Positions 10,834 through 63,154 of a stretch of DNA of 64,000 bases are shown piece by piece (within the stretch, counting starts at the first letter, position 1; the number at the start of each line of letters is the position of its first letter). Under the pieces are notes generated by a model, which was not told the origin of the DNA, made no database searches, and was given only the letters and a program-made list of their open reading frames with translations. The DNA comes from Chloranthus sessilifolius (taxonomy: Eukaryota > Streptophyta > Magnoliopsida > Chloranthales > Chloranthaceae). Made by a program: the position numbers and the translations under genes. The DNA lies in the NCBI GenBank assembly GCA_021018995.1, contig CM037588.1, positions 143,611,725 through 143,675,724 on the forward strand. Direction: 5' to 3'.

Positions 10834-13567
10834 TGTAATGACCTTCAATTTCTAAAACATATTTGACTGCTTTGGTTTATGTGCCTGGCACAAAAATTGA
10901 GATAAGCTTAAAATTTTTATAATAGTAATATTAGAATTAATATTATTAATTTGTAAGCTTAGGAAGCCATAAGTCACGTATCACGCATGTCTGAGATCAG
11001 TTGAGCTATTTGATAGAATGTTATACACTGAGTATGCGTATGTGCTCAACACCAGAGCAAATGAGAAATGGAAATATTAAGGATATTTCCATGAATTAGC
11101 TTATAAGAGAAGGAAGGTTAGGGAATAGCACATACCTCTCCTCTTTGATATGAAAACTTCTGCCTACAAGCTATTACAAGTGTGAGAGAACTCTTTGAGA
11201 AAGTCGAGACTCGAGAAACCCTAGGTTGTAGATCCTCTGAATTAGAACGCGAAGGAATCGACGGGTGTATGTCAAATCTGTTTGGGGAAAGCAAAAACAC
11301 ATCTGTGTGTTGATGTGGTGATACACCTTTGGTTCCTCGGAGAGGTCAAAGCGGCAAACTCTTGAATCCCGAATCCGAAACCAACATTGAGCTGAGGATG
11401 CCATGAACCAAAGGAGCAGCCATAAAAGAGGTGAGTTACTAGGTATTTGTAGAGGTTTAGATGCCATAAATATTTGTTTGTGTGTGCTTGAATGATTTGT
11501 GGAGAATCATAAACATTTATGGTTGAAATAGGTTAAAAATTAACGAACTATATTTATGACAGAAGCTGTCATTTTTGATCGATCAAATACTCAATTTGAT
11601 CGATCAAATTATAATCCGATCGATCAAATTTGGGATTTAATCGATCGAATTATATAATTCACTTATACAACAAGAGGGTGATTTTGAGGAAGTTGATGCC
11701 CGATAAATCCGATCGATCAAATTGGGATTTGATCGATCAAATTTGGAACTGATCGATCAAACTATAAGTGATCGATCAAGTGGTAGAATGATCGATCAAT
11801 TGAGAAATTGATCGATCAATTGAGAAATTGATCGATCAAACTGTGAGATTGATCAATCAAATTTAGGATTTGATCGATCGAATTGTATAAATGCCTTATA
11901 TAACAGGAGGTCTGAATTTATGAAATTTTGACTTTGAAAATTTGATCGATCAACCATGAGGATTGATCGATGAAATTGAGGATTCAATCGATCAAATAGG
12001 GAAGTTGATCAATTGAATTCCTCTATTCTGTATGTGTTTAAATATGGGATTCGATTGATCAAAATTAGTAAATGATCGATCGAATAGTGAATTCGATCGA
12101 TCAAATTGGGAAGTTGATCGATCAGATTCCTTTGTTCTGTCTATGAAGGTTTAAGGGATCCGATCGATCAAATGAAGTGATTGATCGATCGAATAGTGAA
12201 TCCGATTGATCACATAGGGAAGTTAATCGATCTAATCCTCCTGTTTTGTCTACTTTGGTTTTTTAGGGAAAATAAGGTTAGACTTTGTACCAGTTATTGT
12301 TCTGACATCTCTGATACTTAGTACATTGTACATATGGTCTAGGTTAAAACTGAGACACATTAAAAAGCTTTTGATTTGCTTAGGACCTGATCTGAGGTAA
12401 GAGAAATTCAACTTAACTTGTATCAGATTTTGACTGCATGGTCTCATAGCATCTGTATCTGACTTCTGTTGTTTTAAAAGCATGCCTAGCATATCAATAA
12501 AAGCGTTTTCATCTTTGATTCCTGTATTCTGATATCTGCTATCAGATTCCCAATATTTTGTATATATATTGATTTAAAGTTCATGTGATGAATCCCCCTG
12601 ACGTGAAAGGATACCCATGACCAGCACGGTGGGATATCCGTGTATCTAATTTGTAAACCCCCTGGCACAAGTTGCTCTCCTTTGAAGATGCTTGATACAA
12701 ATATCTAAAATTGTTCATTGAATGACGATGGTCAGGGTTACCCATCAGCAAACATCTGGCTACCACGTGTTATATTCACTGGAGTTATTTAAGTATAGAA
12801 TTTAAGTCACTAAATATTGTATGCATAGCATCTGAAAACTTTGAAATTAAAGTTTGTTTTCTGTTATTCTTCATCTGTTCTGTTCTTTAAAGTTCTACAT
12901 CTATCATCTAATCATTTCTATCTGCATTCTCTGATTTAACCATCTGTTCTAAGATATGTTCTGCAAACCATATTCTACATTTTAGATGTAATTTAATTAA
13001 GTTTCTTCTATTAAGCTTAGATGGTTAGCTCACCCCTTATTTTTATCATAGGTTCTGAGGCTAGGGCTCCTGGTACTGAGAGTGACCCAGATTATCAGAC
13101 CAAGGCTGAGGCTGAGGATGAGGACACTGATACCCCAGCTAACGAGTTCTATCAGTAGCTTGGATATTTAGTCTTATATTTTTAGGGATCTGTCCATATT
13201 TATTTTGGATTATCTGTGTGACTGGTGGCCACTGTTCTGTGTTATTTTACTGTAGATGTTTACTTATAGTTGTATACATTCTATAGGAACCACTATTAGG
13301 AACCATTATTTTGGGTGATGGAAGTCCATCACCAGTGATTCTTCTTGGTTCCTTTTTGAGGATGTATATTCTTTTGTTATGCTTATATATATGATTTTAT
13401 TTCCTTTCTTTTATTTAGATCCTTATATGATGACTCGATTTGCCACTTTAGATAGTGTCTGCTTTGATTTCTACTAGTTGAGCAGATACTCTTTGGTTTG
13501 TTTTGGGGATCATCCAGGACATGATCCTGATGGCATAGGTTTTCAGGTGTAAAAATTTAGGCTGTCA
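10834..13567 (+). repeat. Element B 5' LTR
   Basis: It begins TGTAATGACC and ends GGCTGTCA, matching the 3' LTR over its whole length. A dense array of GATCGATC palindromes lies at 11575-12235. TATA-like strings follow it (TGTATATATATTG near 12556, TTATATATATG near 13384). Open frames seen inside are not genes. They recur in the other LTR only because the two LTRs are copies of each other. Confidence 0.93.
11575..12235. repeat. GATCGATC palindrome array in element B 5' LTR
   Basis: More than twenty copies of a palindromic motif centred on TTTGATCGATCAAA occur in about 660 bases, spaced irregularly by roughly 15-40 bases, with many one-base variants. The same array is present in the 3' LTR (21930-22530), and a further array lies before the extra gene (18744-19042). 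Confidence 0.93.
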
Positions 13568-13571
13568 TAGT

Positions 13572-13584
13572 TGGTATCAGAGCC
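13572..13584 (+). promoter_or_regulatory. Element B primer-binding site (initiator Met tRNA)
   Basis: TGGTATCAGAGCC lies four bases inside the 5' LTR. It complements the 3' end of plant initiator methionine tRNA, the usual primer of chromoviruses and many other plant LTR elements. Confidence 0.92.
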
Positions 13585-13680
13585 AAGGCTTTAGGTCGAA
13601 CCACGGGGATTATAGGTTGATTATTTTTACAATCTGTGTACTGATCAATGTTATTATTTTTACAATGACAGATCGGTGTT

Positions 13681-14960
13681 ATGGCCCCAAGGTTCAGAGG
13701 ACGTGGTAGAGGTAGAGATGGACCGAGAATGGTTCTTATGGAAGAGATGGATGAGGGCAGTGGTCCTCTATGTGGAGCAGGGTTTACTTCTACTTCTAAT
13801 ATTGTTCCCTTAGGAACTGGAAGAGGAGGTAGTGATGGAAGAATGGAGCAAGTATTGTAAGCTTTCGCTGTCAACGTAGCTCAACAGACCGTTGTGATGA
13901 ATCAATAAGCACCGAGACCACCTTATCAACCCGAAGGCTTTACGGAGTTTAGGAGAATGAGACCTCCTAATTTCTCAGGTCAAATAGATCCGACTAAGGC
14001 CAAGGGTTGGATAGAAGAGATGGAGAAAGTCTTTGAGGTGCTTCAATGCACTGATGTTGAGAAGGTGCGTTGGGTAACCTTCAATCTCGATGGTGATGCC
14101 AAGCCTTAGTGGAAATCGATATCGAGGCACCGTGAATAAGAATTCCCCAATGCCCCTTGGTCGTGGGTTGAGTTCGTTGAAACTTTCATCGATAAGTACT
14201 TTCCCAAGATAGTGAGACATCAGTGGGAAGTAAAATTTATAAAGTTGGAATAAGGAGCTATGACAATGCAAGAGTATGGTGTTGAATTTGATAGGTTGTC
14301 ACGATTTGCTCCGCAACCCGTAGCTATCGAGTTGTTCCAAGCTCAAAAATTTCAACTTGGCTTGAGGCCAAACCCACAAAAAGAAGTGGCCTTATGGGAG
14401 TTGGAGACATATGCGGGTGTTATGTCCAAGTCTCTCATTTCTGAAGAAGAAAATCAAAAGCAGTATGCTTGGAGAGATAGGCAGAATAAGGAGAGGTCAT
14501 TTCAGGGACAATCTCATGAGCCTGATCAGTCAAATAAGAGGGCTAGGTTCTGAAGACCTCCTAGATACCCTACTCATTCTAGATCAGCAGTATCTTCAGG
14601 ACCGTGTTCTTATTAGAGGTCAGCGGTACCTCTGTCATCCAGACCATTCAGATCTTCTAGATCTTCTACTAGTGGAGCTTCTATTGCACAAGAATCTTCT
14701 CAGGTCTCTTCATTTACTCTGGCTCCATCATGTGCAAAGTGTAAGAAACCACACAAGACAGAGGACTGCAGGAGAGACACGGGAGCTTGCTTCAGGTGTG
14801 GCAAGATGGGCCACATGGTTAGAAATTGTCTTGAGGAGAGCAAGGAAAGTAAGGAGAGGGATGGATCGGTATCCACTCAGAGATCTTCTCGACCTATTAT
14901 TCAATCGAGCAAATGCCATCACCGCAACGGATGCCCTGACATCAAATGACATCATCCAAG
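13681..14960 (+). pseudogene. Element B gag with CCHC zinc knuckle
   Basis: It starts MAPRFRGRGRGRDGP, an arginine/glycine-rich N-terminus. A capsid-like domain follows, including MQEYGVEFDRLSRFAP and a GLRPNPQKEVA segment, homologous to the D gag segment RENGVEFLRLARFAP. Near the end are a CAKCKKPHKTEDC-type segment and a retroviral zinc knuckle, CFRCGKMGHMVRNC (CX2CX4HX4C), about 14790-14832. Its role would be particle formation and RNA packaging. Broken copy. Confidence 0.85.
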
Positions 14961-15093
14961 GTATCATTACACTTTCAGTGTTAAATTAATTCATTGATAT
15001 TCATATAATATAGCATGTTTTGATAATTTTATGCGTATGAATGTTCATGATTGCTTTACACTTAACTTTATATGTTTAATATACAAATAAAAG
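14961..15093 (+). other. AT-rich spacer with splice-like borders between gag and protease (B)
   Basis: A 133-base, strongly A/T-rich, non-coding segment. It starts GTATCA after CATCCAAG and ends AAAAG before GTACCC. Element D has a segment of the same kind at the same place. It looks like a short plant intron. Introns near the gag-pol junction are known in Ogre elements of the Tat lineage. I do not know of a report for this lineage, so splicing here is inferred. Confidence 0.5.
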
Positions 15094-15600
15094 GTACCCT
15101 TGTCATGCGTCGTAAAGGCGACGTGAATCAAGCAGATGCTTGTGTGTTGATAGACCCCGAGTCTAGTCACTCATTTATCACTCCTTCATTCTCTGACCCT
15201 TGATTTTATATTGGCTGTATCCGTCTCTACGGGAAATTCAGTAAGCATAGATATAATATGCCAATCAGTTATCATGATGATTGAGGATCACGAAATGATG
15301 ATCTATAGGATTACTTTAAATATAGAAGGGTTTGATGTGATCCTTGGAATGGATTGGCTGTCAGCATACCATGCGAATGTGGATTGTCTTCGAAAGATTG
15401 TGACCTTTCAACCTCCAAAGAGAAAGTCCTTTCACTTTTATGGAATCAAATCCAAGGTCACACCGTTCATTTAAGCTATCCGAGCGGAGCGTATGATGAA
15501 AAATGGATGATGTGGATATCATGCTTACTTGTAAGATTATCAGGAGAAGAAAAGGGACATCGCTCTTATCATAGTTGCATGTGAATACCTAGATGTCTTT
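15094..15600 (+). pseudogene. Element B aspartic protease region
   Basis: It contains VLIDPESSHSFITPSF, the plant gypsy retropepsin active-site region (usual form DSGSTHSFI, here D-P-E-S-S). Further on, [21 protein letters not shown] is the conserved C-terminal hallmark of this protease in chromoviruses. The enzyme would cleave the gag-pol precursor. Broken copy. Confidence 0.8.
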
Positions 15601-16920
15601 CCTAAGGAATTACCCGGATTCCCACCTGATCGGGCGATCAAATTCGCAATCGAGTTAGCATCGGGTATTGAACTGTTGTCAAAGGATCCGTATAAAATGG
15701 TGCCTGTTGAGTTAAAGGAACTGAAGGATCAACTTCAGGAGCTGTTGGACAAAGGTTTTATTAGACCAAGTGTGTCTCCTTGGGGAGCACCTGCATTCTT
15801 TATGAAGAAGAAGGATGATTCGATGCGACTGTGCATCGATTACTGCCAGTTAAACAAGATGGCAATTAAGAATCGTTACACTTTCATGGATTGATGACCT
15901 TTTTGATCAGTTGCAAGGCGCAAGGTTTTTCTCAAAGATTGATCTAAGGTCGGGTTACCATCAACTAATGATTAAAGTGAATGACATTTCCAAAACCGCG
16001 TTTTGCACGAGTTATGGTCATTATGAGTTTTTGGTTATGCCTTTTGGGTTAACGAACACACCCGCATCGTTCATGGACTTGATGAACCGAGTATTCAGGC
16101 CACACCTCGATAAATTAGTAGTGATTTTTATTGACGATATCCTCATTTATTCAAAGACAAGAGCGGAATATGTGTAGCATTTACGAGCTGCTCTTCAAAC
16201 ACTCAGGGACAACCAACTATACGCCAAGCTTAGCAAGTGCGAGTTTTGGCTTGATCAGGTTAGTTTCTTAAGCCATGTTATTTTTGAGGAGGGTATAACA
16301 GTTGATCCTGCAAAGATCAAATCTGTAGTGAATTGGGAGCAACCGAAGATGGTAACGAAAGTCCATAGTTTCCTTAGCTTGGTGAGATACTATAGATGGT
16401 TTGTAGAAGGGTTCTCTAAACTCTCAAGTTTGCTTACTCAGGTTACAAAGAAGAATGCTAAGTTTGATTGGACGGAACAGTGTGAGAAGAGTTTTCAAGA
16501 ACTCAAGAAGCGTTTAACTATAACACCAGTGCTAGCTATACCTTCTGGTGGAGGAGGTTTTGCTATATACAGTGACGCATCTTACAGTGGATTGAGTTGT
16601 GTTCTCAATCAAGATAAGAAGGTTATCGCTTATAGCTCTAGACAACTCAAGGACCACGAGAAGAATTATTCCACACATGATTTGGAGTTAGCAGCGGTAA
16701 TTTTCACTTTGAAGATCTAGAGGCACTATCTGTATGGTGAGATGTTTGATATCTTCACAGATCATAAAAGCCTCAAGTACCTTTTTACCCAGAAGGATTT
16801 GAACATGCGACAACGAAGATGGATGGAGTTCTTGAAAGACTATGATTGTTCCATCCAGTATCATCCTGGGAAGGCCAATATAGTGGCGGATGCTTTGAGT
16901 CAAAAGTCTTCGGCTCAGTT
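15601..16920 (+). pseudogene. Element B reverse transcriptase and RNase H
   Basis: RT blocks are seen in order: LPGFPPDR, then [56 protein letters not shown] and [11 protein letters not shown] (catalytic Asp pair near 16130). A tether region follows, then RNase H with [14 protein letters not shown] and [11 protein letters not shown], ending at [12 protein letters not shown]. The family is chromovirus. It would copy element RNA to DNA in cytoplasmic particles. Several breaks are present. Confidence 0.88.
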
Positions 16921-17169
16921 ATCACATCTCATTATGAGAGTGCATCGGTGGCATTTCCTTAAGGATATGGCCTTGTGTGATACAAGGTTCGATGTTAAAG
17001 GTTCAGGCATTTTGATGGCCACCCTTGTTATCAGGCCAACATTATTTGATAATATTCACAAACTCCAAATGGTCGATGATGAGCTTATGGCCATTAGACA
17101 GGGAGTGATCAGCGGAACTCAAGTAGATTTCTCCATCAGGGAGAATGGCACTTTGTTATTTCAAGATCG

Positions 17170-18545
17170 AGTGTGCATACCTACCAACATTGAGCTTTGA
17201 GACACCATTTTAGAGGAAGCTCATAAATTAATGTACGATATACATCCTGGGAGTACTAAGATGTATCAAAATCTAAAAAAAAGCTTCTGGTGGAGAGGCT
17301 TAAAGAAGGATGTAGCAGAATACATGTCCAAATGCTTAGTCTGCCAGCAAGTAAAGGTAGATCATCAAAATCTGGCAGGATTGTTACAACGTTTGCCTAT
17401 GCCTGAGTGGAAATGGGAAGCCATTTCTATGGATTTTATACTGGGGTTGCCAAAGATGTTGAGGAAACACAATGCCATCTGGGTCATTGTGGATAGACTG
17501 ACCAAGTCTGCACATTTTCTATTATATTGTACTATGTATACCGCCAGCAAGCTTGTAGAGCTGTATCTTAAGGAGATTGTTCGGCTTTATGGTATACTAG
17601 TCAATATTATGTCTGATCGTGATCCAATTTATACATCACAATTCTGGTAGAGATTCTAAGAAGGCATGGGCTCTAGATTTGATTTCAGCTTAGCATTTCA
17701 TCCTCAGACAGATGGGCAGACTGAAAGAGTGAACCAGATCATAGAGGATATGTTGCGTGCATGCATATTAGACTTTCACGGGTCATGGGATCAATATTTG
17801 CCTCTGATTGAGTAGATATACTATAACAGTTATCAGTCCAGCATTGGCATGGCTCTCTACGAAACTTTATATGAACGACGATGCCGATCTCCATTGAATT
17901 GGGAGGAAGTCAGCGAGAAACGTATTTTGGGACCTGATATCATGGACAGTACAACTAAGATGGTTTGTTTGATCCGCGAGAGATTGAGAGTTGCTCAAAG
18001 TCGTCAGAAAAGTTATTCCGATCTTCATCGAACGCAAGTTGAGTTTCAGGTATACTTGATTGTGTTCAATACTTTAAGTTTCCTTGTCTGCTCAATTAGT
18101 ATAGAGTTAAAACCCATTTTCAGGTAGGAGACATGGTCTTTGTGAAAATCTCTCCAACAAAGGGCGTGATGCATTTTGAAAAATTGGAAAGCTAAGTTCA
18201 CGTTATATTGGACCTTTTGAAGTGTTGAGTCAGGTTGGAGAAGTTGCGTATCGAATTACGCTACCACCACAGCTGTCAAGCATGCATAACGTATTTCATG
18301 TTTCCATGTTGAAGAAATATATGAAAGACCCAACCCATGTCTTATATTTTTAGCCTATTGAGCTTCAAGAGGATCTGACTCTGATAGAGGAACCTATGCA
18401 AATTCTAGACCGTAAGGAGCAGGTGTTACGGACTAAGATGATTCCACTTATGCTAGCAAAGTGGCAGAATTATTATTCTACAGAGGCTACCTTGGAGAGC
18501 GAAGCTAAAATTCACGAGCAATACCCGCAGCTGTTTCATTGATAT
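17170..18545 (+). pseudogene. Element B integrase with C-terminal chromodomain
   Basis: The N-terminal zinc-binding HHCC part includes [18 protein letters not shown] and [12 protein letters not shown]. The DDE core includes WEAISMDFILGLP, SDRDPIYTSQFW and HPQTDGQTERVNQ. The last part carries the GPF/Y-like segment and a chromodomain-like end: LDRKEQVLRTK, then EATLESEAKIHEQYPQLF. Chromodomain integrases are thought to steer insertion to particular chromatin. Broken copy. Confidence 0.85.
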
Positions 18546-19282
18546 GCAAAGTAACCGTTAATTTTAAATTACCTCATTTTGTTACTTAATATTTGCTGAA
18601 TAAATACAATTACATAGATATAAAATGGTGTGTGTTGCATGGACTGCTAGTGCCTCATTAGGGGGAATTAACTGTGGTTCTTCAACGAAACTCATAGGTC
18701 AATTACACCTATAATTTTGGAAAACAGCTTTGCTGTCAAATCCAATCGATCAAATTTATGATTTGATCGATCAAATGCAAATGCGATCGATCAAATTGAG
18801 GATTTCATTTATCAACTACTAAATCGATCGATCAAATGGAGAAGTTGATCGATCAAATAAATATTTGGCTTTGTTCTATTCTCCACCCATCCGATCGATC
18901 AATTGGACGAATTGATCGATCGGATTTCCAATGTGATCGATCAACTTAAAGGATTGATCAATCGAACCTGTCGGGTTGGGGTTTTTATTTTGAAATCCGA
19001 TCGATCAAATTTGAACATTGATCGATCGAATCTATCGATTTAAGTTACGTTGGGTTTTATTTTTGCCCATTTGAATGATCAAGAAACCCAATCGTCCGAG
19101 AGCTCTTTGCTTCCCTTGGGTTCGAAATCCATTTTCGGCTACTTTCGGCTACCGGAGCTTCGCATTTTTACTTCCTTAGATCGCATATTGCTCCTTTCTC
19201 GCGGTAAACCCTAAATTTATCAATTTCTTTTGGGGTTTTGTGTATTTTTATCATTTTTCACACCATGGGACAATGAACTAAA
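18546..19282 (+). promoter_or_regulatory. Element B inter-gene region with GATCGATC array and leader
   Basis: After the chromodomain comes about 200 bases of ordinary sequence. From 18744 to 19042 there are about a dozen palindromes of the TTTGATCGATCAAA type, the same motif as in the LTRs. The 240 bases that follow hold pyrimidine-rich leader-like sequence and CGGTAAACCCTAAATTT near 19202, combining a splice-donor-like GTAAAC with a telo-box (AAACCCTA). The same string occurs at the same place in element D. I infer an internal promoter for the downstream gene. Confidence 0.6.
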
Positions 19283-20690
19283 ATGCTTCATGTAAGGTTC
19301 CTACCTCACGAGCTCGTGCACCTGTGCCGCTCGTTGAACCTACCTCACACCTCGTTGTGCAACCCATGGCACCACTTGTGTAACCAGTGCCACCCGTTCA
19401 ACCACCCCAACAGCCACTCATTAACCCGGAATTGCCAAAGGAGTGGTGGGCATCCAAAAAATCCTTGCCCGAGTATGAGTTTACTCCCACACTATTCGAG
19501 GATCAAACCGAAATGATATGGGCGATCAATTACATCTCGAAATTGGGGCTAAAACCATGCACAAACCATTCCATGACCACTATTGCTAGAGGATAGTTCA
19601 CTTATTCTACCAACACCTACGGAGGGGCGGTGACCGTCATCAATTAACCACTAAAATTGATGGGTTGGAGTATAAATTCAACCAATTTCATGTCTCCGCC
19701 ACCTTACAATGCCCATCCAAGTATGTTGAGACTTGTGGGTTGGCAGCACCATATATTAAGGATGTGCCATTTGAGGACATCGTCGCTAAGATGACGCATG
19801 GTCAACAAGGATCGGGTCAGTCCATTACCCGAGCCCAACTCCCGGATAATTTATGTATGCCCCATACCTTTATCAAGTGTATCATTCACACATTTTCGCA
19901 TCAATAAGAACATACGGGTATTGTGTAGCAAGCTCTGTTTTTAGTAATAAAAAATCGTTGGTTTTCCGTTGCCGACGTCATCATTGATGGCTTGCTAGAC
20001 GCCATGGATCGGATGTCTGAGAAGAAGGCAAAGGTGAAGAAAGAAATGTCATGCGCTCAGTTGATTACACATATGGTCGAGCAGTATAACGCTCTACGAG
20101 AGGCATATAGCATGGCGCCTGCAGAGATAAGAAGGAATAATAACACAAAAAATTTTAAGCTTAAAGACTTGACCAAAAGCTACAACCTTTTGGTGAAGAG
20201 GTTGCCTGAGGAGGGGGCTGTTCCACCAGTCCAAGCCGAAGAAGAGCCTGCCGAGCGAGCTCCAGATGTAGGGGAGGCAAAGCATGATCTTCCTCCTCAG
20301 ACGAACGTTGCACTACCGGCCCCCATTCCTACATGCCGACCCACACGTGCTAGTACTTCCAAACATTCTGAGCCCTCCACCACTACTCTAGCAAGTGTGC
20401 TTGCCATGATCAATGACGGAAACAAGAGGGTTCATGAGCAGCTCGATGAGATGTAGGATTTCCACCATCAGGTGCATCGACAATTGAATTTTCATGAGGG
20501 GATGCTCACTCTGTTGATGCAGCACACTTACTCGACCACAACTACCCCTATGATCGGTCATGCTCGCCTGCATGTCGTGGATCCTTGTGACTACAGTACC
20601 GAGCCACCCAGACCTAGTAGACCAGCACCTACGGAGCCTGAACCATCTGCTCTGCCAGTAGGTGATCACTAGATCTGTTATTTTTAAAAT
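19283..20690 (+). pseudogene. Element B extra 3' gene (PF20167-like domain protein)
   Basis: A proline-rich start is followed by ELPKEWWASKKSLPEYEFTP, then AINYISKLGLKP, KMTHGQQGSGQSITRAQLP and a MVEQYNALREAYSMAP segment. The order and key residues match the better-preserved D gene (EWWAAKTFEVEYIIDPTLF, KGSGSSIKRVDLP). The C-terminal part reads LAMINDGNKRVHEQLDEM, probably helical. The domain resembles the family Pfam calls putative plant transposon protein (PF20167, from memory). Biochemical function is unknown. Broken copy. Confidence 0.75.
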
Positions 20691-21185
20691 TATATACATA
20701 TATTTCTGATTCCATATTTAAATTTTGCTTCGCATTCACGATTGTTTCCTGCATGAATTATGTTTTTGAGTGCTTGTGCCTACTATATTCGCTATCTATT
20801 TTGCATGCTCTGTACTCTGATTATCCTGTATGCTTCACATCTACTTGTACTCTGGTTATGTCTGATACCTCTAACTTAATTGGTTAGATGCTCTGTGTGT
20901 GTCATTGTTTGAGTCGCTGTGGGGTGTTCTTCTGAGCATGTGACACTTGGGACCGATGCATCCATGTATGGATACAATCCTCTATGGCATTATGGGATGT
21001 CACGGGCAGTACATCCAGGTTACTACGAATCCTAACCCTTCACAAGCGTGCTTAGCGAAGTCTCTTACTGTTAGGACTGTTTGATTATGCTTCGTTCTGA
21101 GAGATTGTTAGAATTAGAGCACACCATAGACCTGTCTGAGTATGTTTGACATTTTTGAGGATAAAAATTCCTAAGAGGGGGAGAA
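20691..21185 (+). other. Element B 3' untranslated region and polypurine tract
   Basis: Non-coding sequence between the extra gene and the 3' LTR. It ends in TTTTTGAGGATAAAAATTCC and the purine run AAGAGGGGGAGAA (21173-21185), the plus-strand primer for DNA synthesis. Element D has the same conserved ending before its 3' LTR. Confidence 0.85.
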
Positions 21186-48470: not shown

Positions 48471-48539
48471 ATCAGAAAGGGTTACAGTGGATACTTAGCT
48501 TTCTTAAAGGAGGACAAGGAAGAAAAGAACATCATTTCT

Positions 48540-49900: not shown

Positions 49901-50179
49901 TTGTTTGATTTTGGGTATGCACCGATGGAAATTATTGGAAGACCTGGCATTCTACGATGCGAACATTGAGTCAAAAGCCACCGGATCCTTTTTGGCTAAC
50001 ATATCAGTAAAGCCAGTGATATTTGAGCATATCCACGATCTACAGATGAAAGATCCGGCATTAACAAAGATTCATCAAGACGTGAGTGAAGGCATTAGGT
50101 CGGACTTCTCAGTAAAAGAAGATGGTTCGTTGTTGTTTAAAGGCCGTCTCTGCATTCCGGACAATGCCGATCTAAGACG

Positions 50180-52490: not shown

Positions 52491-52728
52491 CTATATATAT
52501 AAAATTAGGGATTTCATTCCCCATTCGAAATCATTTCACCTTGAGATTTTTGGGCGTTTGACCTTCTTCTTCTTCTCCGACCATCCGACGCCCTAGGGTT
52601 GCATCTCCGTTAGTTTTTCAGCTTGTATTCGAGTTGTATCGCCTTCAAACCCACGGTAAACCCTAAATTTTTGTTGTCTTTTCAATTTGAATTAAAGGAA
52701 ACCCTAGATTTTTGTTATTTCACCAACC
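52491..52728 (+). promoter_or_regulatory. Candidate internal promoter and leader of element D extra gene
   Basis: Directly after the palindrome array is a textbook TATA box, CTATATATATAAAA (52491-52504). A pyrimidine-rich leader follows (CTTCTTCTTCTTCTCCGACC near 52562), then CACGGTAAACCCTAAATTT at 52652-52670 with a splice-donor-like G|GTAAAC and a telo-box AAACCCTA, and a second box AAACCCTAG near 52700. The extra gene begins at 52729. The arrangement is that of an ordinary plant promoter with a leader intron. Expression is inferred. Confidence 0.65.
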
Positions 52729-54203
52729 ATGCCGCCCAAAACCCGGTTGTCTTCGAAGAAGGCAACCTCTAAGTTGCCGGTTAGGCGTAAGAACGCCGCA
52801 CCACCACCACCTACCCCATCGCCGGTGAGGACTCCGTCACCGTCGACATCGGAGACCACCTCCGGCTCGACGAGCGCATCTATGCGCGAGTCTTCCCGTG
52901 AGTCCACGCCGATGCCCCCACCACCCACTAATGTGATACAACCAAATGAATGGTGGGCCGCAAAGACCTTTGAGGTCGAATACATTATCGACCCTACCCT
53001 ATTCACAAATCCCAATTTACCGGGCGAGACCCAATGGGCTCGAAATTACCTCAACAACGTCGGTCTCGGCAACCTTCTCAAACCAATCCGGGGTTCTTAC
53101 TACCCTAGATTGGTGAGATTATTCTATCAAGGGCTTGTGGATGGCCCGACCGACGATGTGATCAAGACCACTATTGAGGGTCGCGACTACACGATCACTC
53201 GTCGTCACATACACGAGGTGCTTGAATGCTACCTCGATTTTACCCCAGAGAACACCCTATTCCCACCCTTTGAGGAGGAACCTCGCTTCGAGGAGGTCAT
53301 GACTCGCATGACCAACGGCAAGAAGGGGTCGGGATCCTCCATCAAGAGGGTTGACCTTCCCCACTACATGTGGATGCTTGATTCGATAATCAAGTGTAAC
53401 TTATACCTGATGCGCCACGATACGGAGCGCGTAGACAAAGTGCAACAGGCACTTTATGCGGCCTTCTGTGGCCGATGGTTTGATGCTACCATGGTCATCC
53501 TAGAAGGGATGAGGTACATCAAGGGGAAGCTGATGAAGGGCAACCTACGGCCCAAGGAGAAGATGCCCTATGCTCGCCTTATATCGAGCATGTTGGAGTG
53601 CTACTCCAATGACCCATCCTACACCGTCTCTCCTCACGAGATGAGGGCTACGGACTGCGTGAAGACATTCTCTAGGTCTTCATGGGCCCGTAGCTATAAC
53701 CTACTAAAGCGGACCCTCACCACCCGGGTCCCGCCCAAGAGCAAAGCAGTAGCACCGCCACCACCCACCACCACAAAGAGACCCACCCATGGTGGGGCAC
53801 ACCCAATGAGCCTTCGGAGAGGGTTCCCTCTCATACGCAGCCTCACCGACGCCACCGCCCACCCGCCCATGACACCCACATCATCTTACACTGCTGCCGA
53901 TCATCTGGACCGACCATCGAGGAGGTGTTGGCCCGTATGGAGGCCAACAACGAAAGGATGAACCGGAGGATGGACTTCCTTCTCTTTCACACCCTCCGCC
54001 ACATCTACCCGACCGACTACCGCCACTACCTCGCCCAGGAGGAGGAGTGGATAGTCGGACGCATAGCCTTCCATAGAGGACCCGTCTTCCATCCCACCAC
54101 TGCAGACGCGGTTCCTTCCACATCTGCCTCCGCTCCGCCGACTGAGCCGCTTCCACCACACCCACCACATGCCGCAGCCCGGCTCCAGCCACCACCACGC
54201 TAG
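52729..54203 (+). pseudogene. Element D extra 3' gene (PF20167-like domain), best preserved copy
   Basis: It starts MPPKTRLSSKKATSKLPVRR, a basic NLS-like region, then a Pro/Ser/Thr-rich stretch. The conserved domain (about residues 65-320) includes NEWWAAKTFEVEYIIDPTLF, ARNYLNNVGLGNLLKPI, YYPRLVRLFYQGLVDG, TITRRHIHEVLECYLDF, KKGSGSSIKRVDLPHYMWML, FCGRWFDATMVILEGM and MPYARLISSMLECYS. A proline-rich tail and a helical segment (LARMEANNERMNRRMDFLLF) follow. The largest open stretch is 410 codons. It resembles the 'putative plant transposon protein' family (PF20167, from memory). No transmembrane segment is seen, which argues against an envelope protein. Function is unknown. Confidence 0.82.
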
Positions 54204-54564
54204 CCACTGTACTGCGTCACCTCAGAGGAGCTGCCCAATGCCAGACTGCACCAGCCAAGCGAGGGGACTGCATGAGTTTTATCTTTCTTTTGTATGAGTC
54301 ATGATTGTATAGATGTATATTTTGTACGCCAACTCATGTGGCGCCTTGTAAAAATTTTCTGATATTAATAGAAATCCAAAATTTTTTTGTGTACATTGTT
54401 CAAATTCGTCAAATTTAAATTCTATGCTGGTATATGTAACTAAATAAATACGTCTGAGTCTATTGGACAGCCTCACCTGAGAGTGTGGGGGGGGGAGCGA
54501 GAGAGACCCCGACCGACGAATCTTGGGTTATTTTTGAGGACGAAAATTCCCAAGGTGGGGAGGA
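54204..54564 (+). other. Element D 3' untranslated region and polypurine tract
   Basis: Short non-coding region ending TTTTTGAGGACGAAAATTCC and the purine tract AAGGTGGGGAGGA (54552-54564) directly before the 3' LTR. The same layout and wording occur in element B at 21151-21185. Confidence 0.9.
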
Positions 54565-57060
54565 TGTAATAGCCCGAAAAATTACGCTAAACTATGACCT
54601 TGAGATCCGTGCCCGATCGGTCACAGGTTTGACCAATTAGGAGTTCGATAGTTAGCGTAGAGTGTGATGAGTGAATGAGATGAGATGGTTTATGAAACCA
54701 TGTGGTGTGTGTTGTGAATCTGAAGTCACATACACCTATTGGGGTGCATGTGCTTAACACACAAGCTAGGGGGGGGGATAAAAGGGTTTAATAACCCTAA
54801 AATCAATAGTTTGGTTGTTGAGAGAGAAGTAAAGAAGAGAGAGAGAGGAGTAAAGAGGGTGATTAAGCAAGAAGTTATTGTGGGTGATTGGAAGGGGGAT
54901 TCAAGTATTAAAGAGGTTGATTCTGCGCAAAGAATCCGTTCAAGCCAAAGCTGGAACCCTAGCCTTCCAACCACTTGATTTGAAATCAATTTGAGATTGA
55001 TTCAAGGTAAATTTTTGTGAATAAAATGCATAGATTGTAGTTGAAAATGGTTTAAATCATAGGAAAATGGTTTAGAAAAATAGAGGAAAAAGTGTGGAAA
55101 AAGATTGAGAAGAACAGCCAAAAGGGGGTTGAATCTGACAATTTCGATTAATCGAAATTGGGTTTCGATTAATCGAAATTGGCCAAGAAGTTGAAAAGTT
55201 AGTGGACCCCGATTTCGATTAATCGAATTGGAGTTCGATTAATCGACTGGGAACCTCCAGTGGACCCCAGGGGCTGGAGGAAATGACTTGTAGAAAATCA
55301 ACTAATCGAAATGGGATTTCGATTAATCGATTTCAATTTTCGATTAATCGATTTGGGATCGATTAATCAATTTTAGGAACTCGATTACTCGAATTGAGAA
55401 TCGACTTGGCTGAACAGAGAATTTCGATTAATCGAATTAGGATTCTATTAATCGAATGAGAATCTCGATTAATCGATTTGAGAATCGATTAATCGATATT
55501 GACTTTCGATTAATCGATTTTGGAAATCGATTAATCGAATCAGATTTGATTAATCAATTTTGGAGTTCGATTAATCGACTGAGATAAATTATGTTAACTT
55601 TTGAGTTTGACTTTAAGATTCTTGGAGGGTCTTGGACCTTCTTTATTGCATCCTTTGTGATGTGTTTCACATGTTATGTGGTACCATAGGTGGTACGAGT
55701 GAGCTAGTGCACAAGGAGCCACGTGGGACCTTGATGCATTGATCAAATGAAGACTTGAGGTAGGGAACACCTTGAACATGTACTTTATTTTACAAGAGCA
55801 TGTATGTAGTGATATAGAATTCAATTCAAATGTTTTATTGCTTAAGAATTGTGAAAAGAGTGTGTGTGTGTGACATCCATAAGAGTAATTATAATGAGCC
55901 ATCCCCAGGGAATGATAAAGTGAAGAGATAAGGGCATCAGGTGTGATGCAAGTAAATGGATACATCCCAGGGATGTATCCACGATTGAATCATGTTTGAT
56001 AGGGCCTAACTGATATAAGATAGCACACTTACACGGTGAATAACTATATGTAAGGCACCGATATTTTTGTTATTTGAGGTTTGATAGGGTACCCCACCGA
56101 CGTGGCGGGATATCCACGACTGACACGGCAGGATATCCGTGACCGATACGGCGGCGAAACCGTAGGCCAGTGCGGAGGCTTATCCGTACACAGTAAGCAC
56201 ACCCCAGGGGTGTTGATTTGAGACAAGTGAAACCCCGCCACCAATCCCCAGGGGAAAGGGGCTTGGGTACTATATGGTATTCCCAGGGAATACGTTAAAA
56301 GTGTCTATATAGATGACGATGAAGGGTATCTCATCGGGGCTCGATGCTATATTGCTCGGGGATTACTTAAGTTGAAAGTTTAAGTTTTGCTTTAGGCCTT
56401 TTCAGCATCATTCATGAGTAAATAAAAGACACGAGTAAACTACCAGTAAAATGTAATACTTTTAACTGTTTCATCAATAACTGCATAGACACATCATGCA
56501 TGGCATATCATGGAATATATGTAGTAATAATTTGTATGTTCAACTGTGTTTTGTTCCCTATTGAGCTAGGATGTAGCTCACCCTATAGACTATACGTCGC
56601 AGGTCCACTACTAGCAGCTGCCGAGGCCTCAGGAGACGCTGACCCCGGTGAGTCGGACCTTGCTGCCGGAGACGAGTTAGAGCCACCTCCTGAGGACTTC
56701 TTCTAGAGGACTTCGTTGTGCCACTTTGAGGGCTTTTTGAGAGAGATTTGTACGGCTTTTTATGTCAAGCCTTGTTTTGTTTAACCATATATATATTGAG
56801 TTGGGATTATTCTTTTGGGACGAACCATCCGTGATGATTGCTATCGTCGATGGTTTGGATCGGTTCTCCATTCATGCAGAGGCATGAGGGTAGAACTGTC
56901 TTTTAGAGAACTGCTTTAATATAGATTTAAATTCCGCAATTTTGTTTATTATTCTATTTGATGCTTGATATACCAATGTTCCGTGCATAGCTAAGGGGCA
57001 CGGTCAAGATGATCGTACTGATAGCACGGGTTTTGGGGTGCCGAAATCCTGGCTGTCACA
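54565..57060 (+). repeat. Element D 3' LTR
   Basis: It begins TGTAATAGCCCG and ends GGCTGTCACA, followed by the target duplication CTACT. The palindrome array is at 55137-55580. The second half is almost identical to the 5' LTR. Most differences lie in the first quarter and the array. Confidence 0.94.
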
Positions 57061-57065
57061 CTACT

Positions 57066-57272
57066 AGAGATGGCTCCTTTGGAGCTGTCGATCACCTTTC
57101 CCTGTGGGACAAACTCTTACTTATCAAAACTTGCTACAATGGACCCTGTATCTTGCAGGTCTAGGATTTCTTAGTTGTGCTGATTCCATTCCCTGTCTTA
57201 TTCTTTCTTTGATTTTTAAATGACTTTTGCCACCAACCAATAAAGCAAGCAGCAACTAAGAATTCACTAACA
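57066..57272 (+). repeat. Element E 5' LTR, last piece
   Basis: The end of E's LTR after the insertion of D, closing AATTCACTAACA at 57272. It is followed by the six-base spacer AGTTTT and the primer site, exactly as in element C. Confidence 0.8.
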
Positions 57273-57278
57273 AGTTTT

Positions 57279-57295
57279 TGGCGCCGCTGCCGGGG
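57279..57295 (+). promoter_or_regulatory. Element E primer-binding site (aspartate tRNA type)
   Basis: TGGCGCCGCTGCCGGGG, six bases after the LTR end, matching the site of element C apart from one base. Confidence 0.9.
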
Positions 57296-57762
57296 ACAGA
57301 TGATCTATTAGTAGACCCTTAGTTTTTGTATTCTTAGTATTCTTTACAAATGTGAATAATTGATACTGCTGACATAATTGTGGACCTTTCTTGCAGATCT
57401 AGACAGCAGCAGTGAAGGACAGTTGGACTGCAATTGGAGCTTAGCTACCTCTGTTTGCAAACTCTCTGAGTTTTAAAGCTCTGTCTATCTTTCTTAAAAA
57501 ATTTTCTAGCAGTATCTAGGATAGTTTTAAATGTATTCTTTGAATAGCTGTAAAGTAGTTAGATAAATTTGTTAATTGTACAAATATTCTTTAGCAATGT
57601 GCCTGCAAGAAGCTTTCCTTGCTGTTGGTGTACTTGTATGCTAGGGAGGAGATCTCTCAGCCCTGCTTTAGAGCCTCTTAACCCTGAGTTAGAAAGGGGA
57701 AGGAGACTTAGAAGAGACAGGCACACCACAGGAGAGCCCCCAAGTGAATCTGTGACAACAAT
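57296..57762 (+). other. Element E gag leader
   Basis: Non-coding leader between the primer site and the gag start, A/T-rich in its second half. Probably contains the packaging signal. No gene seen. Confidence 0.5.
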
Positions 57763-59075
57763 TATGGGTGAAGAACAACCCAGAACCCTCAAGGAGTTGA
57801 ATGCTCCGGATGACTATAACTCCCCTTTTAGCATTCAATTCCCTGATGTTCAGGGGAACTACGAAATAAAAACTTCAATCATCCAGATGCTGCCCTCTTT
57901 CCATGGGCTTAGCAAGGAGGACCCTTACAAGCATATTGACCCGTTCTTGGCCTTGTGCACCACTTTTAATATCACTGGTTTAAGACCTGAGGCTACTCGG
58001 CTCAGACTCTTTCCCTTCTCTCTGAAGGATAGGGCCGGTACCTGGTTGACCACTCTTCCCAACAATAGCATTGCTTCATGGAAAGACCTACAAACCAAGT
58101 TCCTGACCAAGTTCTTCCCTGAGACCAAAACTAGCCAGTTGAGAAAAGAGATTCTTTCTTTTGCTCAATCCCCAACTAAGGATTTTAACCAGTCCTGGGA
58201 TAGGTTTAAAGAAATGCTCAAACAATGCCCCCATCACAAGATCCCAGAGTGGCAGCTTGTACAAAGCTTCTACAATGGGATTGATGAGAAAAATAGAGAT
58301 ATGGTCGATGCTTCCTGTGGTGGATCCTACATGCACAAGACTGCTGAGGAGGCATGGGAATTGTTTGAGGTGATTAGTGAGAATGCTTTTCAAAAGCCAT
58401 CCCTGGCAAGAACTGGTCAGGAATCTGAGTCAAAGGTGGGATCTGCTGCTGGATAAAGAGGAAAAGTTTATGTGGTGTCTGGGAATAATGACCTGTAGCT
58501 GCAGATGGCAAACCTCTCTATGAAGTTTGACAAATTACTGACTGTGATGCAACCCAGGATGGCTGCTCATGTGGCGGAGGCATGTCTGATATGCCAGTCC
58601 CCACAGCACACAGTAGAGGAATGTCCATCTGCAGGGCAATTTCCTGAATTGGTTTTGGAATATGCTACTACTGCTCAATCTTATGGCCAGCAACAATCAG
58701 GGGGCTACAACAGACAGCCATATGGATACCAGCACCAAAATGCTGGGTACCAATGGAGAGACCACCCAAATCTGAGGTGGAGGCAAGACAACTACATGCA
58801 GCCCCAACAGATGTTGGCCCTACCATAATGGCCACAACAGCAGTTCAATCAAGGAAATGCCCCTAGGTCTAACTTCCAGCACCATCAATAGCCCCATCAG
58901 CAACAAAATCAATTGGTCTTACCCCACTCTCAGCCCAGAAATACTTCTTTCGAGGACCAGGTCTTGACCTCACTGCAAAACCTGGGTTCCTTGGCTCAGA
59001 CTGTGAATTCTCATGGTCAGAGCATCAAGAAGATGGAAGAACAGATTGGCCAACTAGCGAATACCTTCGCATGTT
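57763..59075 (+). pseudogene. Element E gag (Athila type)
   Basis: It starts MGEEQPRTLKELNAPDDYNS at 57763 and follows C's gag closely: SIIQMLPSFHGLSKEDPYKH, LRLFPFSLKDRAGTWL, TKTSQLRKEILSFAQ, QCPHHKIPEWQLVQSFYNGI, then the knuckle-like CLICQSPQHTVEECP and the helical segment GQSIKKMEEQIGQLANTF. The capsid-like part is open over more than 200 codons. No protease or polymerase sequence follows. Instead the sequence passes into the motif region before the extra gene. Few breaks. Confidence 0.88.
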
Positions 59076-59486
59076 TCAAATATAATTGTGTGGGGTTCCT
59101 CGCGTAGTTTAAATGAACATCCAATCTCGCGACCCATTCAGCCTATTTAGCGAGCAAATATTTTTGAAGCACGTCGAGCTTTGCGACATTAAAAATCCAA
59201 CCCCGCGCTGCTTTTCTTTTATGTTTTCTCTTTCTTCTCCAGCCAGCAAAACCCTAGCTCTGACTCCCATCCATCTCTCTCCTCCAGCATCCAGTTCACA
59301 ATCCATCATTCACCTTCTCGCTCTGGGGACTTACTCTTAAAGCCTCTCCCATCAGTTGCCCCATGCTAAGAACTCTCACGGTCTCTTCCGCATCATATTC
59401 AATGAAACCCTAACTTTTAGGGTAAGCCTCAGCTCTCAACCTTTACTTTTCATTTTGCCAACTACCACTCACAGAGGAGATGTTCT
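59055..59486 (+). promoter_or_regulatory. Element E motif array and leader of extra gene
   Basis: From 59055 to 59210 there are about seven CTCGCG/TAGCGA/TTGCGA motifs, the same family as in E's LTR. Then comes a pyrimidine-rich leader with AAACCCTAG (about 59250) and AAACCCTAAC (about 59405), followed by TTTTAGGGTAAGCC (about 59416), a good splice-donor-like site. The extra gene starts soon after. Same order of parts as in D. Confidence 0.6.
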
Positions 59487-62400
59487 ATGGCCCCTAAGAG
59501 CGCACCTGTCAAAAGAGCAAGGGATAAAGCTCCCATTGAGCCCACTCCCAAGAAAGCGAAGTCCTCTACGGCACAGCAAAAAGGGAAGGAGGTGGTTCCT
59601 GAGGTGGCTACAAAAACCCTCTGAGCTCCTCATGTCCATCCCCTTAGAGCCTGAAGCCATTTTCGATATATCTTTCTTTGAATCTGAGCCATTGTCAGCA
59701 CCTGCCATTGAATTCCTATGCAAGGCTGGTTTGTTCCCCTTAATGCAAATGATTCCTGCACTAGCCTATCCTAGGTTAGTGCAACTCTTTTACCAACACC
59801 TTAGGGTCAGATCAGACACACATGGGCAGCCAGGCCTCCTTGTGTTAGTTGACAATTTTGAGATGCTGCTTAGCCCAGCGTTGATTGCTGAAGTCATGGG
59901 CATCCCTGCCATTTTTTATCCCAACTGCGGTTATGGTGCCCCTGTGAGTGCCCCCCTTGATACCATTGCCCAGGCCATTACCAGAGGTTTGAAGGCCACA
60001 GGGGACTCCATCAGAAGAAGAGACTTGGATCCCAAACTGTTGTTCATCGATCAAGTCCTGAGGAAGAATATCTATTGCTCCGGCCATCAGCAAGAGAGGA
60101 GGACACCAATTGTGGATGCTCTCTATTCCTTCTCTCTGGGCCACAGATTTAATGCTGCATGGTTGATTTTTGAGGCCATGAAAGATATGATGGTGAAGCT
60201 TGGGCTGCAAAAGAAGATCCACACTCTCCCCTATGGTAGACTCATCACCAACTTACTTCTGAGGGGCGGATACAAGATACCAGTGGGGGAGTTATCTGCT
60301 GACCTCACTCCCACCACTTTTGCCAAAAGACAATGGGGGATCAGCAAAAGTCTGATGGATCCCTAGAAGAAGAAGAAGAAGGCTGAAGCTCAGGTTGTTT
60401 CTGAGTAGGGAGAGGGAGCTTCTGTGGCAAAGGCCACCCCTGCCCCCAAAAAGAAGGCTAAAGCCCCTGCTCTAAAGAAGGTGGTGCGAGCTTTTGTCAC
60501 CTCTGCTTCTACAGCAATCCCTCCATCCACCACACTTGCCTCTCCATTAGTTTCTTCACCTATTCCATCTCTCCCTTTCCCTCTCTTATCTCCCTTTTCC
60601 ATTCCACCTCCCACTTTGATTCATTCCTGGGAGGAAAGTATTGAACCCCATGACAACACTCCCCCTTCACCCACCTTACCTCACGACACAGTCCCAGTAT
60701 CTCCAACATCATCTGATCTACACCATGACAGCCCTCCCCTGATATCCTACCTCAAAAAGAAGACCTCTCACAAAACCTCTACCATTCCCTCACAAACACA
60801 AACACACCCTACTCCTTCTCCAACCATTGCAACCATACACACTGACCCAGAAACCATACCAACTATCCCTGCTTCACCTCCACTCCCAGACCTTGACTAT
60901 AACCTTGTCACCACTTTAGGGTATCAGGCCTCCATGACTACCTTGCTTGATACCTTGCCCACCCATGACATCCCTCTCCCAGATTTCCCACTCCCTTCAC
61001 CACATTATTCACCAGATCTTTCATCTTCTCCCCCTACAACTTTCCGTCATGCTCCCACTTCCCCTTTCCAACCTGTTCCCTCCTCTTCTCATTCTCCACC
61101 CCACCCAACCTCAGATACCCTTACCCATATTTTTCCCTCATACATGACCTCCAGACCTAGCTATCCACCACAACACAGACCCAAGTCCACATGCAGACTG
61201 ACATAACCAACATACAATCCACCCTTCAAACATTGACAAACCCACCAATCCCTATACAACCTCCTACCACCTTATTGATCCAGCCTCCTTCCACCTCTTA
61301 CTCCACAGTTACACCAGACCTCACCCAATTTGACTTACCTACACCCTTCACACTCCATGACACCATACCCCACCACTCTTTCCCCACTCTACCTATCCTT
61401 CCCCCACTACTATTACCTCCACCACAATTTACCAACACTTCTACCCAAACCAACCCCATTCCTTTCCCATCCACCTTCCCCATTCTACCCCACATCTTTG
61501 CAACCCCACCACTTCCATTTCAACCCTTACCCAGAACCATCCACATCCACTGCCCTTCTTTCATTCCACTTTCCACCCATACCTTCCATTCCCCCTCTTC
61601 TCCCACCCCCTCCTCAATTCACTGACCATTCCACACAGACCACCCCAGCCATTTCTATCCTTCCTCTAGACTTTATCACTACCCATCTTGCCCAGACACT
61701 CCTATTACACCCCTCCCTACTTCACCCTCCTCCATGCCATGAGGGACAATGCCTATATCAAGAGGGATGTTCTCAATGGCATGGCCCAACTCCGACAAGC
61801 CATCAAATACCCCTTGCTGCAGAAAATGAGTGACTTGAAGCTTGCTCACCACGAGCAGTTGAGAGATATTTCCAAGGGGTGGGAGGCAATTTTGGAGACA
61901 CTCAATGTGAATAAGGTTGCGGCAACTTATTACCTGATGACTAGTGAGATTGAAAAGGCCAATGTCGAAAGGGCAAAAAAGAACCACAGGTTATTTGAAA
62001 GGAAGCTGAACAATGCTTAAGAGATCAACCGACTTAGTAAGGAGCTTGCAGATACCAATCTCCTGTGTGCTAACAAGAAAATTGAGATTTTGGAACAGAG
62101 GGTTGCCTTCCTACTATCCCAACCAATACAAGCCACCCCTCTCGCCACCGCACCCCCTGAGGCCCCATCTTCTTCCACAAAACCAGGCCCTTCTTCTTCC
62201 ACGCCCCCTGCCCCTACACCTACACCACCTGTCCCCCCACCTCCTACAGCCCCATCTCCGGTACCTCCCCAAGCTCCTGCTCCTGTCTCAGTGCCTCCCC
62301 CTGTTCCCTCTCCTGCCCCCAAAAGGAAACTCACTCCTTCCAAGAAACCTCCCACTTCCAAAAGAGCCACTGCAGCCCGAAAAGGAAAAATGCCTGCCCC

Positions 62401-63154
62401 TCCATCCCCACCTCCAAAGGTCACTAGAGCTTCTGCTCAGGATGATCCCCATGGTCGCCTTCTTTCCAAAGAAGAACGCAGACAGGCTGCTGCTGCCCTT
62501 GGTTTGGATGCCACTGAGTTTTTTCCTTTTGACTCAGACTCTGATTTCGCACCACCTAGGGATCCTAGTGCCCAGACTACTGCTGCTGCTCCTTCATCAA
62601 GCCCTGCTGAACAAACTTATCCTCAGCGAAGGAAATTGGCTGCCAAAAGGACTACACCCCCAACTGCCTCTCTGAAAATTGGTAAAGACAAATCTGCCCA
62701 GTCTGAGGAGGCCCCACCAATAAGCCAGCCAGTGAAAGGGAAGAGCCCTGCCATTCCTGCAGCCAAAGAACAAGAACATTCTTCTGTGGCTCCCCCTAAG
62801 CTTCCTAAAGGGAAAAGTCCTCTCCTACCTCAGGAGAAAGCAAAAGATAAATCCCCTGTTGTCCCTCCTGAGCCAGCACAAGCCCAATCCCCTCTTATTC
62901 CCTCTCCTGCCCCCAAAGGGACGATCTCCAAAGGTAAGGGCCCCAAAGGAAAATCTCCCACAAAACCCCCTGAGCCAACCACTGATAAATCTTCCGAGAT
63001 CCCTCCTGAACCTAAGAGGAGAAAAATGAGGGTCAGGGCTCCAACCATACCCAAAACGGCCGACCAAAGAAAGGCAGAGAGAGAACAAAAGAAGAAAGAG
63101 GAGGAGGCTTTCCTTCAAGAGCATGCAAAGAAGATGGGTTGGGACAAGTTTTGA
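59487..63154 (+). pseudogene. Element E extra gene (PF20167-like domain, coiled coil, basic proline-rich tail)
   Basis: It starts MAPKSAPVKRARDKAPIEP at 59487, with NLS-like KR/KK clusters. The domain (about 59640-60330) has YPRLVQLFYQHLRV, LLSPALIAEVMGIPAIF, ATGDSIRRRDLDPKLLFIDQ, GHQQERRTPIVDALYSFSLG and LPYGRLITNLLLRG, very close to C. A long Pro/Thr/Ser linker (60430-61680) and a helical segment (AYIKRDVLNGMAQLRQAIKY, about 61750) also match C. The tail, 62090-63154, is rich in Pro, Lys and Ser with repeated KGKSP-type units and a charged end (KAEREQKKKEEEAFLQEHAK). Few breaks. Function is unknown. Confidence 0.82.

Follow-up and report, generated by a model that had tools for sequence, protein, structure and literature searches.

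The window analysed here, a 64,000-nt stretch of the 2.17-Gb Chloranthus sessilifolius genome (C5:143611725-143675724), contains nested long terminal repeat (LTR) retrotransposons. Its plant LTR elements and a Pfam name confined to plants mark it as plant DNA. Four of the elements, designated B, C, D and E, carry a homologous extra gene. In each, a private short CpG-containing box is repeated in the LTR and again just upstream of that gene, clearly in B, C and D and more weakly in E. B, C and D have paired LTRs, and both C and D are inserted in E. Element B (10834..23821, plus strand) is a Ty3/gypsy element of chromovirus type whose LTRs (10834-13567 and 21186-23821) are 86% identical; the sequence TGGTATCAGAGCC, resembling a primer-binding site (PBS), follows the 5' LTR, and the direct repeat CCAAG lies at both ends or no more than two bases from them. 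Element D (43908..57060, plus strand) is of the same type, with LTRs at ~43908-46401 and ~54565-57060 (94%) and the target-site duplication (TSD) CTACT. The pol regions of B and D are homologous (68% DNA identity) and end in visible chromodomain-like tails, that of D not being called as a chromodomain by a Pfam scan. Element C (27966..42316, minus strand) is Athila-type Ty3/gypsy, with LTRs at ~27966-29814 and ~40451-42316 (96%), the TSD CCTCG, a PBS that we take to be tRNA-Asp-type, and no second RNase H among the frames scanned. Element E (27253..64000, plus strand) is Athila-type by its PBS and gag, which directly follow D, and its 3' LTR lies beyond the window. Its presumed 5' LTR is in three pieces (~27253-27965, 42317-43907 and 57061-57270, plus strand; 27253 as its start was judged from the sequence) because C and D were inserted into it, the TSDs CCTCG and CTACT bracketing the inserts. 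Models of Ty3/gypsy type (RVT_1 and/or RT_RNaseH) match B, C and D, and the E gag is Ty3-type. The lineage names Athila and chromovirus are partly provisional assignments: B and D are presumably of the Tekay/Del clade, C is presumably Athila, and the B PBS is presumably Met-type.

Searches of the window by tblastn with the D, C and E proteins (E-value ≤0.01) located the extra gene at 19435-20228 in B, 32959-34029 in C, 52729-53958 in D and 59341-60363 in E and yielded no fifth copy, in agreement with an initial annotation of this DNA that had assigned a homologous extra gene to these four elements. The D and C proteins are 29% identical (E-value 4e-34) and those of C and E 35% (2e-49), while the closest relative of the B gene is that of D (31.6% over 234 residues, 9e-40, with stops in the B copy). 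The B gene as a whole (19285..20300, plus strand) is degraded by stops and frame changes. An open frame of 410 residues with a basic N-terminus and a PF20167-like (Transposase_32-like) domain (E-value 4.6e-8) constitutes the D gene (52729..53958, plus strand). The domain piece of C (32959..34029, minus strand; E-value 7e-9) is open over 357 residues, and further frames to ~31514 hold a Pro/Thr-rich and a C-terminal stretch. The E gene (59487..63154, plus strand) is broken by frame changes and stops; it has a basic N-terminal piece from 59487, its PF20167-like domain lies in the frame 59341-60363 (plus strand; 8.5e-10), and Pro-rich and C-terminal pieces reach 63154. Scores of D, C and E against PF20167 (33.6, 36.2 and 39.2 bits; E-values 5e-8 to 9e-10) are below the curated Pfam cut-off of 45, and B is assigned to this kind through homology to D alone. 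Between the E gag and the extra gene (57563-59215: gag, then the pre-gene array and gene) no pol was seen, so that array and gene have persisted after pol was lost.

The proteins begin with basic stretches. Counted over the first 60 residues (over 48 in E), K and R together number 11 (D), 19 (C), 11 (E) and 12 in a further family, F, described below. The highest 19-residue hydropathy values of D (0.98) and the C domain piece (1.02) indicate no strong membrane span; with peaks of 1.68 in the E domain, 1.64 and 2.03 in the C side pieces and 2.05 in one F copy (L046), a membrane 'envelope' protein is kept as a less probable reading. A Pfam scan of the D, C and E proteins (E-value ≤10) and of F (≤1) returned only PF20167, plus one insignificant other match in F. 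No homologue of the D protein outside this genome was found at E-value ≤0.001 in a protein collection, nor did the D gene or D pol match viral contigs, both collections perhaps being poor in plants. Each of the four extra genes has the telo-box-like AAACCCTA a short way upstream of its presumed start (~19206 in B, 34128-34135 in C, 52658 and 52699 in D, 59249 and 59405 in E); the motif occurs 14 times in the window on both strands. With this motif in all four and the TATA box TATATATATAAAA at 52492, directly after the D array, the extra-gene leaders look promoter-like.

Boxes resembling TTTGATCGATCAAA form three arrays in B: 25 in the 5' LTR (11574..12235; ≤4 mismatches), mostly 19-21 bp apart, 13 before the extra gene (18741..19083; ≤4 mismatches) and 22 in the 3' LTR (21928..22529). 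The TTCGATTAATCGAA-like boxes of D are arranged in the same way, with 19 in the 5' LTR (44479..44948; ≤4 mismatches), 29 before the extra gene (51671..52483; ≤4 mismatches, counted in 51600-52500) and 17 in the 3' LTR (55143..55579). All 42 window copies of exact GATCGATC lie within the B LTR arrays and the spacer before the B gene, and all 47 copies of exact CGATTAATCG within the corresponding places of D. When 14-mers were matched loosely (≤3 mismatches), 56 of 71 B sites and 65 of 77 D sites fell in their own LTRs and spacer, against 5-18 and 1-5 expected window-wide (three shuffles each). Aligned on their dyads, the boxes read TTTGAT-CG-ATCAAA in B and TTCGAT-TA-ATCGAA in D, symmetric variants of one palindrome. 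The inner ten box positions hold 1.1-2.0 bits, whereas linker values are mostly 0.1-0.8 and reach 1.2 at single positions, a contrast favoured by the fact that the sites were picked by their match to the box. Conserved boxes with variable linkers nevertheless agree better with sites than with a repeat unit that was merely copied.

In C, CTTTTCGAAAAG-like boxes (≤3 mismatches) occupy the LTR (29300..29560; 11 boxes in 29200-29600), the other LTR copy (~41717-42025) and, with less regular spacing, the stretch before the extra gene (34290..34670; 10 boxes in 34250-34700). The 11 LTR and 10 spacer sites were reached by none of 300 shuffles, and 20 of 22 matches to a 12-mer (≤2 mismatches) lie in the LTRs and spacer of C, with 3-9 expected window-wide (three shuffles). 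Four models were trained on a single C LTR array: the top one found nine matches in the pre-gene spacer and at most two in any other 400-bp window outside the C LTRs, and the other three gave 4-5 versus 2. Element E is a weak case, since the stricter models do not show its spacer. Both window copies of exact CTCGCGAAG lie in its LTR, whose array of CTCGCGAAG / TCGCGA type (27500..27965, continuing at 42317-42440) has, at ≤3 mismatches, 12 sites in the LTR piece (reached by 0 of 300 shuffles). The TCGC/GCGA-type array before the gene (59041..59215) has only two sites at that threshold (reached by 18% of shuffles) and eight at ≤4 mismatches (0.3%). Just 8 of 28 matches to an E 10-mer (≤2 mismatches) lie in its LTR and spacer, with 12-18 expected window-wide (three shuffles), and trained E models do not single out the spacer within the window. 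It is singled out by the loosest site count and by 4-mer count only, the two TCGC/GCGA-richest 170-bp windows of all 64 kb being the E LTR (9) and the E pre-gene spacer (7; mean 0.39). The element-specific motifs of the initial annotation are thus retained for B, C and D in both places and only partly for E, with the correction that all four are best read as palindromes. In a single case, C was inserted exactly within an E-type box (target CCTCG|CGATG; 27961-27965 / 42317-42325), a curious site given that the boxes are possibly protein-bound.

Across 14 arrays, 161 of 213 box-to-box steps of ≤80 bp measure 19-22 bp, a count to which no probability is attached because related arrays are not independent. 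The C LTR is informative in this respect, as all ten of its steps are 20-21 or 31-32 bp: the boxes are two or three helical turns apart, and no step falls at two and a half. TATA boxes lie ~350 bp downstream of the LTR array in C, where TATAAATAG stands at 28941 (minus strand), and ~170 bp downstream in E, whose LTR has TATAAATA at 42596.

A genome-wide profile search with PF20167 alone, in which no motif was used, gave 13,856 loose first-look candidates, and 150 places were scored and listed. Sequence was examined for 45 of these 150: the best 30 as short loci and 20 as longer loci (ranks 1, 9, 14, 19, 28, 33 and 35-48), five being in both sets. The best 30 of the 150 listed matches form one family, F, separate from B-E. 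Family F is Ty1/copia, RVT_2 matching upstream of the one copy tested (L055, next to L046; E-value 1.4e-34) and a copia-type RNase H, recognised by an ad hoc pattern, ending before the array in 16 of the 20 longer loci. Copy L046 scores 61.8 bits against PF20167, above the cut-off. The layout predicted by the initial annotation recurs before this gene: at least four boxes of a different palindrome, CACGGACGTCCGTG (≤3 mismatches), precede it in 28 of 30 loci, compared with 0 of 30 for the reversed motif, and none of the 30 has an array in the 700 bp in and after the gene at the same threshold. Among the longer loci, at least three boxes stand before the gene in 18 of 20, at least two at the presumed 3' LTR start in 14 and both in 13, while no locus has a box between the domain end and the LTR (≤3 mismatches). 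A polypurine tract (PPT) followed by a TG start was seen in 12 of the 20; TATA lies close to the array, TATAAA being present in 11.

The boxes of B, D and F are abundant genome-wide, with 3,821, 60,765 and 2,526 exact copies against 4, 5 and 2 for the reversed controls. The D geometry (3.3 and 7.4 kb) recurs in one triple of clusters, spaced by 3.0 and 7.0 kb, within the first 50 listed D sites. The first 50 listed B sites likewise include a triple (3.3 and 6.2 kb) that comes close to the B geometry (3.3 and 7.0 kb); other near cluster pairs in these lists (5.3-12 kb) are without element geometry.

Elements neighbouring the examined F-search loci supplied LTRs related to those of B and D. One that is 73% identical to the D LTR (L054) retains the D box. 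Two others have different palindromes at the same place: CGACTAGTCG boxes mixed with other forms at 80% identity (L043), and CTCGCTCGAGCGAG boxes at 67% (L038), where the aligned part begins just after the array. An LTR 67% identical to that of B (L048) has ATTGATCGATCAAT boxes. Placement is constant while the letters change, and the differences between B and D and between D and L043 are symmetric. Of the initial annotation's proposal that the gene controls a co-evolving, element-specific motif, the joint occurrence of gene and boxes with fixed placement, and boxes that differ between related LTRs, are thus borne out; the control itself is weighed below. Loci L048, L050 and L003 (arrays near 500-1500, 3000-4200 and 800-1700) are all B-related LTRs with ATTGATCGATCAAT-type boxes that differ in their flanking letters and share the core. 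The AT-rich repeat GATTATCTG at L036 is not palindromic and by its look is an ordinary tandem repeat.

Contrary to the initial annotation, which knew of no such description for LTR elements, this layout has a precedent. Bousios et al. (2010; PMC2829016) reported palindromic, element-specific, high-copy CpG boxes upstream of TATA in the LTRs of 13 Sireviruses; in the nine with ENV, 77 of 79 internal copies lie upstream of that gene, and the four without it have LTR boxes only. These boxes resemble those of B, C and D, and the weaker ones of E, in being palindromic and placed both in the LTR and upstream of an extra gene. They differ in being restricted to Ty1/copia and in having a CGG-CCG core in 12 of 13 elements (Tnd-1 is without it), whereas B-E are Ty3/gypsy and have cores without CGG-CCG (TTCGAA in C, TCGCGA in E, GATCGATC in B, CGATTAATCG in D). 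The F core CGGACGTCCG does have CGG-CCG, and this family appears to belong to the Sirevirus kind already described. Bousios et al. called their boxes Sirevirus-specific and matched them mainly to stress-factor sites; the text of that paper available to us names no binder and does not propose the ENV protein as one, whereas here the arrays are tied to a shared PF20167 gene. What is new is the box layout in Ty3/gypsy elements, its tie to one gene family and a specific proposed mechanism. Neither a pairing of gene and boxes in Ty3/gypsy elements nor binding by the encoded protein was described in the mainly open-access literature searched, as far as its text was available.

We lean toward the view that the extra gene encodes a dimeric, sequence-specific regulator that binds its own palindromic CpG boxes and controls both promoters positively. 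Palindromic, mostly helix-phased boxes that differ between related LTRs fit the sites of an element-encoded dimer. Further points in favour are the four homologous genes with four element-specific arrays in the window, the recurrence of the layout in a Ty1/copia family, the TATA boxes downstream of arrays in D, C, E and F, and the basic N-termini of C, D, E and F; moreover, the gene of B is closest to that of D, just as the boxes of these two elements are symmetric variants. The PF20167-type protein would be nuclear and dimeric and would bind the CpG palindromes of its own element family; with boxes about two helical turns apart, several dimers could sit on one face of the DNA. Both the LTR promoter and the internal promoter of the gene have arrays upstream, so the protein may switch on both or keep both unmethylated, and the result would be positive autoregulation of element transcription. 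As protein specificity drifted, the arrays would drift or be replaced, giving related elements separate switches. One gene family stands behind private palindromic arrays in three lineages, and these arrays recur at the LTR promoter; the simplest explanation is a protein that would regulate both promoters as a dimer. A wider proposal is more tentative, and we hold it at somewhat less than even: the PF20167 gene and its boxes may form a portable, self-specific control module of at least three lineages (Athila, chromovirus and Sirevirus). The plant 'envelope-like' proteins would then be a family of DNA-binding anti-silencers or activators whose sites turn over by symmetric changes that follow the protein, an independently arisen counterpart of VANC in LTR elements.

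Several observations weigh against a self-encoded regulator. Four Sireviruses lack ENV and yet have boxes in their LTRs (PMC2829016), which means that boxes do not need the gene in cis in order to be present; the expectation that arrays occur only with the gene, in LTR and spacer, was examined in small part, and these elements depart from it while the exact B and D boxes conform to it within the window. De novo motif models of B and D cross-match each other's arrays without discrimination, which the exact cores achieve. Phasing is imperfect, as the C spacer includes steps of 24, 29-31, 52 and 54 bp, the B and D arrays hold 46- and 72-bp gaps that fit it more poorly, and the E spacer array is both weak and unphased. 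No clear TATA box stands close after the B and D LTR arrays. In family F, two of the 30 loci are exceptions (L005 with no box and L017 with three), and the LTR is judged from the PPT and TG start, not from an LTR pair. Five F proteins had no match to the window genes by tblastn over the window (E-value ≤0.01) and weak ones by BLASTP (0.001-0.2), so the kinship of F with the window genes rests on PF20167. The comparison covers five gene families (B, C, D, E and F) and no tree. We know of no demonstrated DNA-binding activity of PF20167.

The main competitor, which we consider unlikely though worth keeping in view, is that the boxes are sites of host transcription factors of the stress type, which drive two units; the extra gene would be just one of these and have another role, as in the old 'env-like' idea. 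This is close to the interpretation of Bousios et al., whose boxes matched mainly stress-factor sites (PMC2829016), and it accommodates both the boxes of the four elements without ENV and the hydropathy peaks in E, C and L046. The D protein and the C domain piece, however, show no membrane span, and boxes that differ among B, D, C, E and F in one genome, and even between related LTRs, are hard to explain by conserved host factors. Rather less probable is that the protein binds the boxes and represses, either to limit copy number by acting on its own promoter and that of the LTR or in competition between relatives. All positional evidence fits repression equally well, and TnpA of Spm acts both ways. 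We favour activation or de-silencing because it would promote the spread of the element; in addition, three lineages would be more likely to keep an activator gene at high copy than a repressor gene, and VANC is an anti-silencer (PMC5735166), both being weak arguments.

Explanations that need no protein appear improbable. In maize, the palindrome clusters of Sireviruses have an excess of mapped small RNAs (Bousios 2016, as cited in PMC10760457), and the palindromes could act as RNA or DNA hairpins, in RNA packaging or as triggers of small interfering RNAs. Hairpins do not predict the ~10.5-bp phasing, including the two- and three-turn steps of C, the position upstream of TATA boxes or the tie to the gene, and we give them little credence. 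Slightly further down we would place a neutral, satellite-like expansion in which gene and arrays coincide by chance. Plant LTR elements often contain tandem arrays (as do about half of the Retand clusters; PMC11963269), but a neutral origin does not explain why the boxes are conserved while linkers vary (given the caveat on site selection), why the same motif stands at two distant places per element, the only places in the window where the B and D motifs occur, or why 0 of 20 F loci have boxes between domain and LTR.

VANC proteins carry a DUF1985 domain. The D, C, E and F proteins had no DUF1985 match in the Pfam scans described above; kinship to VANC was therefore dropped as a family claim and kept as an analogy, and the B-E system is not filed as VANC despite its like layout. 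VANDAL elements (PMC5735166, PMC10398659) pair an element-encoded protein with short family-specific motifs in tandem, non-coding arrays that diverge between relatives, a layout that B-E resemble. VANDALs are DNA transposons, however, the VANC21 site YAGTATTAY is not a palindrome, and binding and loss of methylation were shown for VANC. The extra open reading frame (aORF) of sunflower Athila (PMC11728184) and the extra frames of SIRE and OTA (PMC6317226) share Transposase_32 similarity and a position 3' of pol with the genes described here; nuclear localisation was predicted for the sunflower protein. The accessible portions of these two papers describe no box arrays or DNA-binding role, and PMC12844716 leaves for investigation whether such proteins modulate the epigenetic landscape. 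The Retand TRP28 frame (PMC11963269) is alike in being an extra frame predicted to bind DNA and accompanied by tandem arrays between pol and the 3' LTR; it differs in its domain (PF04195) and antisense orientation, and counterpart arrays in the LTR are not described in the available text.

The function of plant 'env-like' extra genes is a long-standing question that the one-to-one pairing of gene and box makes simply testable. Should the proposed regulator be real, nature would offer in these genes a large collection of dimeric DNA-binding proteins that differ in specificity. The genes would also explain how abundant elements in one genome control themselves separately and, next to VANC, would show that sequence-specific control encoded by an element arose independently a second time.

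Elsewhere in the window, region A (6000-9900) has no extra-gene homologue and no box array; it is strongly C-rich, with Pro-rich, gag-like frames, two of which gave nothing in a Pfam scan. The interval 23822-27252, also without a box array, is degraded and by eye resembles the pol of another Ty3/gypsy element. At 3545-3897 lies a tandem duplication of 173 bp at a 180-bp step, its copies 99% identical.

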